Assembly: GCA_025056175.1 (NCBI GenBank) | Contig: JANWWK010000019.1 | Coordinates: forward strand, 1-59,232 | Reading direction: 5' to 3' | DNA: 59,232 nt | Source: Anaerolineales bacterium | Lineage (GTDB): Bacteria > Chloroflexota > Anaerolineae > Anaerolineales > Villigracilaceae | In this document: positions 53,753 through 59,232 of the stretch, piece by piece | Layout of the letters: every line of letters begins with the position of its first letter | How positions within the stretch are numbered: the stretch's first letter is position 1 | Position numbers and translations under genes: made by a program | The notes under the pieces: model-generated | The model's input: the letters and a program-made list of their open reading frames with translations, nothing else | The model's database searches: none | What the model was told of the DNA's origin: nothing

Positions 53753-55702
53753 ATGACCGACAATCTGAAACTATACCAAACCATGCTTCTCATCCGCCGC
53801 TTCGAGGAACGCGCTCTGGCGGAGTTCTCGACCGGTAAACTCTTCGGCACCACACATGCCTACATTGGACAAGAAGCCAATGCCGCTGCTGTGTTTTCCG
53901 TCCTGCGCGAAGGAGACATCGTATGGAGTAATCATCGCTGTCACGGCCATTTTCTCGCTTATGGCGGCGACCCGTATCGTCTGGCCGCCGAACTGATGGG
54001 ACGCGCCACCGGCCTGGTGGGGGGACGTGGTGGCAGTCAGCATATCCAGTGGCGTGACTTCTATTCCAATGGCATTCAGGGCGGTTTTACGCCCATTGCG
54101 GCCGGTATGGCGCTGGCCGAAAAAAACACCCAAACCGGCAACATCGTGCTGGCGTTTCTGGGGGATGGCACCTTAGGCGAAGGCGCGCTCTACGAAAGCC
54201 TGAACCTGGCTGCACTCTGGCATTTGCCGGTTCTCTACGTGCTGGAAAACAACCGCATCGCCCAAACGACTCCGGTCGAACAGGGTGTTGCCGGTTCGAT
54301 GGCGGCGCGTTTTCAGGCCTTTGGCATACCCACATGGGAAGCCGATTCGAGCGATGTGTTGAGTCTGCAACCGCTCGCCCGGCAAGCGGTCGAACACACG
54401 CGCAGCGGGCAGCCGGCGGCGCTCATCCTGCACACCTGCCGCTTCGCTGCCCACAGCAAAGGTGATGATACCCGCCCGCGCGAAGAAGTTGCTCGCCTGC
54501 GCGCCGAGCGCGACCCGCTCACCATTCACGCTGCACGCCTTTCTGCGCTCGAACGAGAGCAAGCCGAAACTCAGGTTGCGGCCTGCATTGAGGACGCTTT
54601 CAGCCGCGCAGAAAAAGATAACTACCCGGTCTTTCAGGTATCTGCGCCGCTCCATTCCCCTGCTCCCCCGCAACAGCAGCCGTCCCTGCAAGCGCAGAGC
54701 CGAACCACCGTGCTGGAACGTCTCAACGCCGCCCTGCACATGGCGCTGGAGAACGACCCACGTGTTTACGTGCTGGGTGAAGACATCCTCGACCCCTACG
54801 GGGGCGCCTTCAAGGTCACGCGCGGCCTTTCAACCCGCTTCCCCAACCGCGTGCTGACCACGCCCATCTCCGAAGCAGCCATTTTAGGCCTCTCTACCGG
54901 CATGGCCTTGCGCGGTTTGCGCCCGGTGGCCGAAGTGATGTTTGGTGATTTCATCACGCTCATGGCCGACCAGCTCATCAACCACGCTGCCAAATTCCGC
55001 TGGATGTATAACGACCAGGTGCGCGTACCGCTCGTGCTGCGCGCTCCCATGGGAGGGCGACGCGGCTACGGTCCGACGCACTCACAATCGCTGGAAAAAC
55101 ACTTTCTCGGCGTGCCAGGCTTAAAAGTTCTGGCGCCGAGCGTGCTTGGCGACCCTGCCGCGCTCCTGCTGGCTGCCATTGCGGAAGATGACCCCGTCCT
55201 GTTCATCGAACACAAACTGCTTTACACCCGCCCCCTGCTTCAGCCAGCCGACTTGTCGGATTGGCGCCTGGAATTTTTCGGTCAACCGTTTGCGGATATT
55301 GCCTTGCGCCTCTCCGATGACCTCTCTCCGCACCTGACCATCGCCACTTACGGCTACAATCTGGAACTGGTCCTGGCTGCTGCACAGGAATTAATTTACG
55401 AGCATGAGATTCTGCCGGAAATTATCGTCTTTTCGCAATTAAGCCCCTTCCCTTCGACGGTTTCGCATCCGTTTCTGCAATCAGCCGCCAAAACACGCCG
55501 CCTGTTGACGGTAGAAGAGGGAACATTCACGCTGGGCTGGGGCGCCGAACTGGCCACCCGCGCTGCCGAACACATCGCAGGCGTAAAAGTGCGCCGCGTG
55601 GCCGCCCTCGATTTGCCGATTGCCAACTCCAAACCGCTCGAAGAGGCCATCCTGCCATCCAAAGAGACCATTCTTCAGGCTGCGTTGCACCTTATAAAGT
55701 AA
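53753..55702 (+). CDS. 2-oxoacid dehydrogenase E1 component, alpha-beta fusion
   Basis: A thiamine-diphosphate enzyme that decarboxylates a 2-oxoacid and passes the acyl group to a lipoyl domain. Alpha part, about 1-290: LLIRRFEERALAEFSTGKL, HRCHGHFLAYGGDP, GGRGGSQHI and the ThDP motif GDGTLGEGALYESLNLAALW..VLENN. A Pro/Gln linker at about 300-320 leads to the beta part (to 649): NDPRVYVLGEDILDPYGGAF, LSTGMALRGLRPVAEVMFGDF and EEGTFTLGWGAELATRA. Alpha and beta are separate genes in most species. The substrate (pyruvate, branched-chain or acetoin-like) cannot be told. No usual E2 or E3 gene is nearby; a lipoyl-NeuD fusion is. Confidence 0.92.
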   Translation: MTDNLKLYQTMLLIRRFEERALAEFSTGKLFGTTHAYIGQEANAAAVFSVLREGDIVWSNHRCHGHFLAYGGDPYRLAAELMGRATGLVGGRGGSQHIQWRDFYSNGIQGGFTPIAAGMALAEKNTQTGNIVLAFLGDGTLGEGALYESLNLAALWHLPVLYVLENNRIAQTTPVEQGVAGSMAARFQAFGIPTWEADSSDVLSLQPLARQAVEHTRSGQPAALILHTCRFAAHSKGDDTRPREEVARLRAERDPLTIHAARLSALEREQAETQVAACIEDAFSRAEKDNYPVFQVSAPLHSPAPPQQQPSLQAQSRTTVLERLNAALHMALENDPRVYVLGEDILDPYGGAFKVTRGLSTRFPNRVLTTPISEAAILGLSTGMALRGLRPVAEVMFGDFITLMADQLINHAAKFRWMYNDQVRVPLVLRAPMGGRRGYGPTHSQSLEKHFLGVPGLKVLAPSVLGDPAALLLAAIAEDDPVLFIEHKLLYTRPLLQPADLSDWRLEFFGQPFADIALRLSDDLSPHLTIATYGYNLELVLAAAQELIYEHEILPEIIVFSQLSPFPSTVSHPFLQSAAKTRRLLTVEEGTFTLGWGAELATRAAEHIAGVKVRRVAALDLPIANSKPLEEAILPSKETILQAALHLIK

Positions 55703-55756: not shown

Positions 55757-56431
55757 TTATACGACCGGCAAACCAGCTCTGGCCTGTTTGTAAGCCTGTC
55801 CGAACAAATGATTGGAAAACAGCTGATAGTAAGCAGCCACGGCCAGAAGACCGACACCACAAACCAGGCTGCCAAGCGGCGAGAGAACCGTAAGCAGCAA
55901 CCCGGACAAAATGACACTCAGCAAATACGGGCCGACCGCAGCGCGCAACAGGCCAAAGACCTCGCCAAAGCGAAAGGCTGCGCCCAACTGCCCATCATTC
56001 GCCATCATATTGCCCAGCGCCGGCGGAACGAGAAGACCGGTCAGCACGACGAGAAAGAAGACCACACACCCCATGCACAGCATCAGAACGGTCGTTCCCA
56101 TTCCTAAAGCATCCGGGTTCGATTCGCTCAAAGCGGCAACCAGGCCAAAGTTGAGCACCTGCCAGCAGCCTACCACCAGCAACAACGGCAAACTATACGC
56201 AAGTTGCACCACCACTCCCTTGAACCCCGTGCCAACGAAACCGCCGAAATCGCTCCAATCGGGCAGAAGGACAGGTTCGTCTTTGATGACACGCCGCATG
56301 ATTTCCAACCCCCAGCCAGCCAGAATGATTGGCCCAACGACCGGGATAAGAAATACCAGCGCGGCAATACCAGCTTTCTTAAGCCAATCAGCATCTTCAA
56401 AAGCATAAGAAAAAGCGCGTCCAAAATCCAT
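55757..56431 (-). CDS. DUF4013 membrane protein
   Basis: A 224-residue integral membrane protein with about six helices, recognised by the DUF4013 opening MDFGRAFSYAFEDADWLKKA and the LPDWSDFGGFVGTGFK segment near 58-73. Function of the family is unknown. A TATAAT box on the minus strand (56467-56472) and an AGGAGG site just before ATG 56431 support it. It lies between the E1 gene and the lipoyl-NeuD gene but on the opposite strand. Confidence 0.85.
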   Translation of the reverse strand: MDFGRAFSYAFEDADWLKKAGIAALVFLIPVVGPIILAGWGLEIMRRVIKDEPVLLPDWSDFGGFVGTGFKGVVVQLAYSLPLLLVVGCWQVLNFGLVAALSESNPDALGMGTTVLMLCMGCVVFFLVVLTGLLVPPALGNMMANDGQLGAAFRFGEVFGLLRAAVGPYLLSVILSGLLLTVLSPLGSLVCGVGLLAVAAYYQLFSNHLFGQAYKQARAGLPVV

Positions 56432-56520: not shown

Positions 56521-57636
56521 ATGGCGTCCATCCCCGTTCTTGTGCCGTTGTTAAATGCCAACGAACCGGAAGCCCGGCTGATAGAAATTCACGTCCACGA
56601 AGGCCAGGCCATCCGCAAAGGCGATTTACTTTTCACGCTCGAAACCACCAAAGCTGCCAGCGATGTTGAAGCGCCCGGAGACGGATTTGTGCGCCTGCAA
56701 GCGCAGGAAGGCGAAACCCTTGTCGTGGGCGCCGTACTGGCATATCTGACCGAAACACCCGATGAGCCGGTTGCCGCGCGGCAAACCGTTTCAGAAAGCA
56801 AACCTGCTGCGGTAGAGAACCAGAAGCACCGCTCCGAATCGCTGCGCATCACCAAACCCGCCCGCGCATTGGCCGAATCGCTGGGCATTGACCTTTCCAC
56901 CCTGCCGACCGACCGTCTTATCACCGAAGCGGCCATTCGGCAGATGGCCTCTTCAACGGGACAACCTGCACGACTGCCGGAAGCGGAAACCACAAGCCGA
57001 AACGCGGCCATTCTGCTCTACGGCGCCGGCGGACACGCAAAAGCCGTGTTGGAGATGATTCAATCCATCGGCGCCTTTAGAGTGGTCGGTATCGTAGATG
57101 ACAACCCTGCGCTCACCGGCACATCCGTATTGGGCGTGCCAGTGCTGGGAACGCGCGATGCCCTGCCAGCGCTCCTTCGACAGGGCATCTTTCTGGCCGC
57201 CAACGGGGTAGGCGGCATCATCAACATCGAAATTCGTGTTAAACTGTTCGAGTTACTGACGGCGCATGGGTTTGCCTTCCCGGTTCTGCGCCACCCGCGC
57301 GCCACCGTTGAGCCTTCCGCCGTGCTGGAAGACGGCGTTCAGGTCTTTGCGAATGCGTATGTCGGCTCTTCGGCCATCCTGCGCGAAAAGTGCATGGTCA
57401 ACACCGGCGCCATCGTCTCGCACGATTGCGAAATTGGGCGCTACGCTCACATCGCGCCTGGCTGCCTGTTGGCTGGACACGTGCAGGTCGGTGAACGCGC
57501 TCTGGTGGGCATGGGCGTCACGACCATCATTGGCCTGAAAATCGGCGAAGGTGCACGCGTCGGTAACGGCGCTGTCCTGCTGGCCGATGTCCCGGCACGG
57601 CAGATTGTTCCGGCCGGAAAGGTGTGGACGGGCTGA
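56521..57636 (+). CDS. Fusion of lipoyl domain, E3-binding domain and NeuD/PglD-type acyltransferase
   Basis: A 371-residue protein of unusual design. Residues 1-80 are a lipoyl/biotinyl domain with the modification Lys44 in LETTKAASDVEAPGDG. Residues about 110-147 resemble an E3-binding peripheral subunit domain (ITKPARALAESLGIDLSTLP, LITEAAIRQM). Residues 160-371 are a NeuD/PglD-like sugar O/N-acyltransferase: Rossmann start ILLYGAGGHAKAVLEM, then a left-handed beta-helix with the catalytic His in NTGAIVSHDCEIG. The normal E2 catalytic domain is absent. It could accept an acyl group on lipoamide from an E1 such as the one at 53753 and pass it to an amino sugar or other acceptor; this is inference. 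AAGGAA precedes ATG 56521. Confidence 0.85.
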   Translation: MASIPVLVPLLNANEPEARLIEIHVHEGQAIRKGDLLFTLETTKAASDVEAPGDGFVRLQAQEGETLVVGAVLAYLTETPDEPVAARQTVSESKPAAVENQKHRSESLRITKPARALAESLGIDLSTLPTDRLITEAAIRQMASSTGQPARLPEAETTSRNAAILLYGAGGHAKAVLEMIQSIGAFRVVGIVDDNPALTGTSVLGVPVLGTRDALPALLRQGIFLAANGVGGIINIEIRVKLFELLTAHGFAFPVLRHPRATVEPSAVLEDGVQVFANAYVGSSAILREKCMVNTGAIVSHDCEIGRYAHIAPGCLLAGHVQVGERALVGMGVTTIIGLKIGEGARVGNGAVLLADVPARQIVPAGKVWTG

Positions 57637-57637
57637 G

Positions 57638-58627
57638 TTACCTGCCGAGTTTCTTTTTGAACGCCTGCGTGAGCGCCGGAACGAACGTAAACAGGTCACC
57701 GACCACGCCATAGCGCGCGACCTGGAAGATGGGTGCTTCGGGGTCTTTGTTAATCGCCACCACCAGTTTGGCGCTGCGAATACCCACGATGTGCTGAATC
57801 GCACCCGAAATGCCTGCTGCAATGTACAAATCCGGCGAAACCACCTTCCCAGTCTGCCCCACCTGATGGGCATAAGGGATATAACCGGCATCCACCACCG
57901 CGCGCGAAGCGCCCACCGCTCCGCCCAGCACGCCTGCCAGTTCCCCAAGTAACTGGAATCCCTCTCTGGCTGCGGCTGCTTCATCGCCACCAAACGCCGG
58001 GTGATTGGTCACCCCACGCCCTCCCGAAACGATAACCCCGGCATCTGCCAGGCTCACGCCGCTTTCACCGGGCGCATAGCCCTCCACCACCGTAAGCGGC
58101 TGCCCAACTGCAGCGTAACGCCTGACCTCGCCATGTCGCCCGGGTTGATGCGCCGGACGGGCAAACGCACGCGCCCGCAGGGTGATGAATTGTGGCCGCG
58201 CCATGCAAGCAGCCTTTTCAAACAATTTGCCTTCGTAAATCGGGCGGGTGACCACCAGCGTTTCGCCCTCGGCCTCCAAACCGGTAGCATCGGTCAAAAC
58301 GCCGCTTTGCAAGTCTATCGCGCACATGGCGGCCACCTCGCGGGTGCGGGTGGTGCTGGGAAGCAAGACGGCATCGGGAGCGGTATCGGTCAGAATCGCG
58401 CTGAGCGTAGAAGCATACGTCTCCGGGCGGAAATCGGCCAGCGCAGGGTCATCTGCAGCCAGCACTTCATCGGCTCCAAACGCAAAAGCCGCCTCAATCA
58501 ACCCCTCCAGGCCGGTACCCAACACAACGGCAGACACCTGGCCAAACGCCCTGGCCGCGCCCAAGGCTTCCCACGAGGCCGATACAGCGTCTCCCTGAAA
58601 ATGGTCAATGTACACACACAGTTTCAT
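57638..58627 (-). CDS. etfA: Electron transfer flavoprotein alpha subunit
   Basis: The FAD-binding subunit of ETF, which carries electrons from acyl-CoA dehydrogenases and similar flavoenzymes to the respiratory chain or in bifurcation. The 329-residue protein has the N-terminal domain ([20 protein letters not shown]) and the FAD domain signature [11 protein letters not shown] near 194, then [35 protein letters not shown] near 250-285 and [21 protein letters not shown]. The order etfB-etfA with ATGA overlap shows co-translation. It is convergent with the lipoyl-NeuD gene, 1 bp away. Confidence 0.95.
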
Positions 58628-59232
58628 AGCACCTTCTCCGCCAGAATTTTTTCCACCAGGGTTTCGGCAATTGCTTCGGGGCTTTCGCCGGTGATAATTT
58701 CACATCTGGCCTCGCGCGCAGGCGGATTCATCAAACTGCGGCGGTGAACCACCGTCTGCGGAGCAGACATCCCCAAATCGGCCAGCGACCAGACCGGGAT
58801 GACCGCTTTGGATGCCTTGCGGATGCCCATAAACGAGGGATAGCGCGGCTCGCCAATGCTCTGGACAACGCTCATCACCGCCGGCAGAGAGGCACTGACC
58901 GTTTGTTTGCCCTCTTCTAGAACGCGCTCGACGCGCACAGCGGCCGCCAGCGCTTCAATTTTGCCCGCAAAACTCAACAGCGGCCAGCCAAGCAAACGCG
59001 CTGTCTGTGCCGCCATGAGACCGGAGCCATTATCCAGCGTTTGGCGGCCAAAAATAACCAGGTCGGCCGCGCCGATTTTGTGAATGGCCGCTGCCAGCAC
59101 GCGCGCCGCGCCCTGGCTATCCAGGCTCTCGAGGGCAGGGTCTGAAACGAGAATGGCCTCATCAGCCCCCATCGCCAGCGCATGTTTCAGAGCTTCACGC
59201 GCACTTTCAGGCCCGAGGCACAACGCCGTTAC
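58624..59232 (-). CDS. etfB: Electron transfer flavoprotein beta subunit (partial)
   Basis: The C-terminal 202 or so residues of ETF beta; the start lies beyond the right edge. Visible are the segment [15 protein letters not shown], the AMP/FAD region [28 protein letters not shown], and [25 protein letters not shown], all characteristic. Family members have about 260 residues, so about 55-60 are missing. Its stop overlaps the etfA start. Whether the pair is of the bifurcating type cannot be judged from this part. Confidence 0.93.

Follow-up and report, generated by a model that had tools for sequence, protein, structure and literature searches.

The question raised by the 59,232-nucleotide stretch of DNA analysed here (the window) is why one protein should carry the lipoyl arm of a 2-oxoacid dehydrogenase E2 in front of a sugar acyltransferase, and where its acyl group would come from and go to. 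We consider it probable that the protein serves a CoA-independent relay of acyl groups from 2-oxoacids to amino sugars, in which the catalytic domain of E2 has been swapped for a N-acyltransferase of the NeuD/PglD type.

The fusion protein (371 aa; 56521..57636, plus strand) was delimited by its open reading frame, domain profiles, a structural model and full-length relatives. The frame starts with ATG; a TTG is located in frame 30 nt upstream, and homologues mostly align from near the ATG. Full-length relatives are 43-79% identical overall, and since such relatives with 43-50% identity occur in other families of the order, the open reading frame is no chance arrangement. Pfam searches with the 371 residues returned Biotin_lipoyl (18-76), PglD_N (164-244) and Hexapep repeats. 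Prediction of the whole chain with AlphaFold2, based on an alignment of 22 relatives (mean pLDDT of 85.7), which the first-pass annotation of this DNA had proposed as a check, recovered all three modules: residues 1-78 form a lipoyl barrel and residues 160-371 the NeuD body, and between them a low-confidence linker (89-105) is followed by two helices (112-120 and 136-145) and a second linker. The lipoyl domain (residues 1-78; 56521..56754, plus strand), with its modelled strands within residues 4-77, was matched by PF00364 at residues 18-76 with an E-value of 4.5e-9, and the module was detected in 22/22 members of the alignment (A1). Lys44 of the ETTK motif (56650..56652, plus strand), the expected lipoylation site, is Lys in 83/83 fused copies, and N12, N14 and E15 are likewise fixed throughout these 83; the lipoyl module was thus correctly recognised at the outset.

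For the middle segment, Pfam E3_binding, searched at E ≤ 0.1, yielded a match in 1/22 members of A1 (E 0.092, not reaching the Pfam cut-off), and the segment was therefore tested by fold and by profile. Modelled in isolation (47 aa, mean pLDDT 82.5) and searched against 350,542 PDB chains, it gave 17 matches with E ≤ 10, of which 15 were peripheral-subunit/E3-binding domains or E2 models (best E 0.15, none significant singly), with VIA Z-scores of up to 5.8. A profile of the segment ranked the pyruvate dehydrogenase (PDH) E2 of the genome first among 1,799 non-family ORFs (duplicates included), with E-values of 1.4e-5 for the whole protein and 0.02 for its best-scoring stretch; the remaining E2 proteins of the genome followed at 0.22 and 22, behind an unrelated ORF (0.078), so only one of the three E2 proteins stood out in this test. 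Residues 107-146 (56839..56958, plus strand), which include both helices, were accordingly assigned to a peripheral-subunit/E3-binding-like domain (PSBD-like) that is devoid of the usual Gly loop. The E3-binding-like segment of the first-pass annotation is thus borne out by its fold; the softer part is the docking of E3, which is uncertain because Arg is kept at position 115 in only 20/83 fused copies and the Gly loop is missing. All three modules are genuine, with the case for the middle one made more by its fold than by its sequence.

No match to the CAT-like E2 catalytic domain (PF00198) was obtained by Pfam in the fusion protein; residues 160-371 are of the NeuD type instead. NCBIfam assigned residues 164-363 to TIGR03570 (NeuD), the score of 182 bits exceeding the curated cut-off (160.8). 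This body consists of a PglD_N-type nucleotide-sugar binding domain (residues 160-250; 56998..57270, plus strand; PF17836), containing Asp193-Asp194 and the subfamily motif N-x-VGGI, and a left-handed beta-helix acyltransferase domain (residues 251-371; 57271..57633, plus strand; PF00132). Its best fold match was PerB (4eaa; Z 31.0, rmsd 1.7 over 204 residues), with PglB-ATD (4m99) at Z 30.1 and VioB (7txp) at Z 28.9. The protein would function like an E2, but by fold and score it is a NeuD-type acyltransferase and in the strict sense no E2. Across the 83 aligned fused copies, Lys44, Asp193, Asp194, Asn294, Thr295, Gly319, Leu328 and Gly366 are invariant, and His301 (57421..57423, plus strand), the putative catalytic residue, is His in 82/83 fused and 22/22 other subfamily copies; the earlier statement that the E2 catalytic domain was replaced by a NeuD-type one with the catalytic His retained therefore holds. 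In the alignment His301 is equivalent to His142 of Pcryo_0637, which, according to PMC8040287, acts as the base, with Gly160 as the oxyanion amide and an Asp pair binding UDP. Going by these roles, the fusion protein keeps the UDP-binding Asp pair, the catalytic His and the oxyanion Gly.

Two candidate marks of the acyl donor were considered, of which one was weakened and the other dropped. The C-terminal G-x-P-A turn, the Pro of which goes cis on CoA binding in Pcryo_0637 (PMC8040287), occurs in 6/7 ordinary NeuD proteins and in 0/83 fused copies. Its loss as a mark of lipoyl use is weakened by the copies without an arm, 0/22 of which have it; as these (L174-L193) keep His301, the absence of the turn marks the subfamily and not the arm. 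Thr295 and Leu328, which delimit a stretch at 57403..57504 (plus strand), are the two alignment positions that fully separate fused from arm-less copies (83/83 against 0/22 for each). Thr295 was nevertheless dropped as a mark of a non-CoA donor, since it is shared by 3/3 ordinary NeuD proteins aligned. Judged from the alignment, Thr295 and Leu328 track the working arm completely, and Thr295 is no simple donor switch. The N-x-VGGI loop is absent from the three ordinary NeuD proteins aligned.

The cognate E1 (649 aa; 53753..55702, plus strand; PF00676, PF02779 and PF02780) combines alpha (about 1-295) and beta (about 318-649) in one chain and ends 818 nt before the ATG of the fusion on the same strand, in agreement with the fused E1 first noted 0.8 kb upstream. 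Between the two is a DUF4013 gene (55757-56431) on the opposite strand; relatives of it were found in 10 loci, all fused, and it is placed between E1 and fusion in the window and in a further nine fused loci. As in pyruvate dehydrogenase E1 of the PDH_E1_alph_y type, the best NCBIfam model of the cognate E1 is TIGR03182, and the subfamily retains the His of HSK (alpha, at least 97% of copies), the His of THSQ (beta, at least 80%) and the GDG motif, all of which have catalytic roles; the nearest PDB chain to the alpha half is human PDH E1 alpha. It differs in scoring 240 bits, under the curated cut-off of 393.85, in having GGSQH, against GGSMH in two of the three other E1 of the genome, and in an EDILDPYGG stretch of E1-beta that is one residue longer than in all three. 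It is a guess that these motif changes might affect the substrate. A distinct E1 subfamily thus adjoins the fusions.

Of 400 genomes sampled from the order, 168 matched the family profile at E 1e-60; among the matches listed, at least 116 spanned model positions ≤5 to ≥360 and at least 25 began at position 135 or later (both counted by hand). The class sample gave matches in 10/396 genomes and the phylum sample in 10/400, all from this same bacterial order. The order of three modules, a search for which had been suggested together with the initial reading, hence recurs in many genomes across the order, with none outside it in the samples searched. No full-length fusion was found in 50,697 phage records (5 matches, transferase half only), in 72,556 plasmid records (95 matches, 0 over 80% of the query) or, by two pattern scans, in viral contigs. 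A single scan of a collection of species genomes, by exact matching of peptide patterns taken from P0001, returned 11 loci, and four Anaerolineae/Chloroflexi records among them (L035-L038) span nearly the whole query; because this collection was scanned once and by exact patterns, fusions in other phyla may exist. Of the phage matches, those from phages of Aphanizomenon and Planktothrix (H31-H33) carry a PglD-like acyltransferase gene. Two PLSDB 'plasmid' records (H2, H3) measure 2.17 Mb, the size of a Neisseria chromosome, and are possibly mislabelled.

The association of E1 with the arm was analysed in 114 loci around copies with and without it, in which E1 genes were mapped by profiles and the line between fused and non-fused was drawn at a lipoyl profile score of >100 bits. 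Fragments at contig ends (L060, L069, L070, L071, L073, L075, L076) were dropped from the count, two of which (L073, L075) are fused with E1 beside them, as were S_L184 (470 nt upstream only) and the ordinary NeuD loci L077-L079; L036-L038, copies of L047, L048 and L053, were left out of the alignment, and the row for the window was entered by hand from its own map. E1 was present on the same strand within 4 kb of 82/83 fused copies and of 0/21 copies without a working arm. In fused loci E1 alpha and beta are either joined in a single chain or encoded separately. Only E1-beta is adjacent (tblastn) in four fused loci whose upstream sequence is long enough, and these four genomes encode an E1-alpha of the cognate type elsewhere (54-72% identity). 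In a whole-genome check of 18 genomes, the 13 searched that hold an arm-less copy contained no cognate E1 (best E1 ≤43% identity, in the canonical range), and in one of these 13, G570, there was no E1 at E 1e-40; many genomes are draft assemblies, in which a missing E1 is no proof of absence in the individual case. The sole fused copy without E1 (L065 9007-10191, genome G041) has Gln in place of His301, and its whole genome contains no E1 above 40% identity; it is probably a decaying or repurposed orphan. The linkage to E1 is therefore complete apart from one copy that has lost its catalytic His, and comparative genomics strongly supports a coupling between E1 and the lipoyl arm.

Homologues lacking lipoylation had been named by the first-pass annotation as evidence against its reading. 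Relatives without a lipoyl domain or its Lys do exist, and they support the coupling, as 0/21 have E1 beside them. Eighteen of these relatives have no lipoyl domain and three have a lipoyl-like remnant without the Lys: L191 (5684-6715; 57.5 bits) with His, L183 (6357-7298; 54.9 bits) with Arg and L193 (6007-7116; 26.0 bits) with Thr at position 44, as read from the sequences. ETTK is replaced and the N-x-N-E motif gone in all three, no PSBD segment is detectable in them and E1 is absent nearby. Elsewhere in the 30 non-fused loci, no lipoyl remnant above chance was detected in the 1.2 kb upstream of the transferase domain (best E 0.71). A tree built from 108 transferase domains places the arm-less copies among fused ones, and L183, L191 and L193 form one well-supported clade (100/97). 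The state of the arm changes 3 times on the best tree; with the ordinary NeuD rows in the tree, well-supported branches require 2 changes. Arm losses are few, with 2 independent pairs on starred branches, and a sign test was not significant (median p 0.5); formal significance for arm loss is not attained because there are only two such pairs. The three remnants show an arm that decayed from a fused ancestor, with the Lys lost when E1 is absent.

A linkage to sugar genes, likewise proposed at the outset, was recovered in other families of the order and not around the window. A DegT-family aminotransferase is located ≤3 kb downstream on the same strand in 28/84 fused loci, with a gap to the fusion of <60 nt in 21, and a bacterial phosphoglycosyl transferase ≤6 kb upstream in 37/84. 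One or both are near 46/84 fused loci, 19 having both; among the 38 with neither some are contig ends, as 77 loci extend 1.3 kb or more downstream and 73 extend 3.2 kb or more upstream. The best models of the aminotransferase are PseC and LegC, with scores below their cut-offs. As some non-fused loci have these genes too (aminotransferase near 8/30, phosphoglycosyl transferase near 5/30), they are not specific to the arm. Within the window's own family, none of the fused loci has these sugar genes adjacent; in the window's genome, close relatives of the aminotransferase (65%; C89:71416-72561) and of the phosphoglycosyl transferase (68%; C75:10296-10910) are encoded on other contigs. The same genome encodes a canonical PDH in a complete operon (E1a, E1b, E2; C59), one lipoamide dehydrogenase over the cut-off (C79:7905-9290), a lipoyl synthase over the cut-off (C92) and an LplA-like ligase (C82; 113 bits against a model cut-off of 480); the other ligase-family match is a biotin ligase (C31). 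Two more E1/E2 gene pairs were noted in it (G000; C17:13220-16567 and C79:25494-29270), one with a single E1 ORF of 804 aa.

For the lipoylation of Lys44, the acyl transfer from lipoyl, the sugar acceptor, the recycling by E3 and the identity of the acyl group, we infer the following course. The dedicated thiamine-dependent E1 would decarboxylate a 2-oxoacid and load the acyl group onto lipoyl-Lys44, and the flexible arm would bring the S-acyl-dihydrolipoyl group into the active site of the beta-helix, while the PglD_N domain would hold a nucleotide-bound (UDP) 4-amino sugar. His301 would serve as the base that activates the sugar amine, and Gly319 as the oxyanion amide, by analogy with His142 and Gly160 of Pcryo_0637 (PMC8040287). 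The sugar would thus be N-acylated without free acyl-CoA, the arm reoxidised by the lipoamide dehydrogenase of the genome, and the acylated sugar handed to a phosphoglycosyl transferase for a surface glycan. The acyl group is expected to be small, with the nearest E1 family using pyruvate. Since the canonical PDH already supplies acetyl-CoA, the group may plausibly differ from acetyl, and keeping such a device beside that PDH suggests either economy or a non-acetyl group. The stronger proposal, on which we are evenly divided, is that of a new class of 2-oxoacid dehydrogenase complex, a 2-oxoacid : nucleotide-amino-sugar N-acyltransferase built as a trimer with swinging lipoyl arms and delivering a non-acetyl (e.g. 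hydroxyacyl or branched) group for which the cell has no ready acyl-CoA.

The NeuD domain might instead use ordinary acetyl-CoA, with the lipoyl and PSBD modules only tethering E1 and perhaps raising local acetyl-CoA together with the canonical E2. The complete canonical PDH operon, the CoA-binding close fold relatives and the Thr295 common to ordinary NeuD proteins are all in keeping with this. It is quite improbable all the same, as the CoA-type G-x-P-A turn is missing in 83/83 fused copies, the E2 catalytic domain is unmatched in the fusion protein, and the joint absence of the arm (or its Lys) and E1 would go unexplained. We regard as very improbable indeed that the beta-helix domain is an E2-like transferase from lipoyl to CoA or another thiol, with the sugar-binding half as a relic. 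The position beside E1 is that of an E2, and the symmetry of trimeric beta-helix cores is like that of E2 trimers; a relic is at odds with Asp193 and Asp194 fixed in 83/83 copies and His301 in 82/83, and with the aminotransferase and phosphoglycosyl transferase neighbours, which some arm-less loci have as well.

The relay could also operate as proposed on an acceptor other than a UDP-4-amino sugar, such as a different amine, or a hydroxyl group, of some other nucleotide- or lipid-linked molecule. A changed acceptor is hinted at by the N-x-VGGI loop, absent in the three ordinary NeuD proteins aligned, and the best fold match, PerB, is a GDP-sugar enzyme; with a PseC/LegC-like aminotransferase directly adjoining the fusion (<60 nt) in 21 loci, we hold such an acceptor to be unlikely. 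The acyl relay to an amino sugar, as already suggested by the first-pass annotation, is the interpretation supported by these comparisons; that CoA is absent as the donor, we infer.

Compared with the E2 of pyruvate and other 2-oxoacid dehydrogenases, the fusion protein shares the N-terminal lipoyl domain with its Lys, the flexible linkers, the PSBD fold and the alpha-beta E1 partner, and differs in the NeuD-type beta-helix in place of the catalytic domain, the PSBD without Gly loop and an acceptor predicted to be an amino sugar rather than CoA. With NeuD, PglD, PerB and PglB-ATD (TIGR03570) it has in common the PglD_N domain with the left-handed beta-helix, the catalytic His, the UDP-binding Asp pair and the oxyanion Gly, from which it is set apart by its own lipoyl arm and PSBD, the missing G-x-P-A turn, the N-x-VGGI loop and the co-inherited E1. 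The bacillosamine-type pathway of Campylobacter has the layout PglC-PglD-PglE. Like it, 19/84 fused loci have a phosphoglycosyl transferase, an N-acyltransferase and an aminotransferase near one another; unlike it, their phosphoglycosyl transferase is separated from the lipoyl-armed acyltransferase by E1 alpha and E1 beta, so that the layout recalls PglC-PglD-PglE with what may be a keto-acid acyl supply inserted.

If the relay is true, lipoyl-bound acyl groups are used outside CoA metabolism as a carrier-borne donor in glycan assembly, in the way that acyl-ACP serves LpxA and LpxD. It would also lead straight from keto acids to unusual N-acyl sugars, for the engineering of which it would supply a modular core. 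The armed, dead-armed and arm-less relatives constitute a natural set that makes the idea of the relay directly testable. A search limited to the open-access PMC literature yielded no description of a lipoyl-NeuD fusion; the 'lipoylation' of glycans in PMC4875605 refers to fatty-acid chains.

Some further features of gene arrangement were recorded. In L048 (G025), a distance of ~17 kb within one contig separates E1-alpha from E1-beta and the fusion, and sensor-kinase-like genes are found directly upstream of E1-beta; in L062 (3497-8902; G049), a gene similar to a sensor kinase of the window is placed between E1-alpha and E1-beta. Downstream of the fusion in the window (57638-59232, minus strand) are two convergent genes that by eye resemble electron-transfer flavoprotein subunits.
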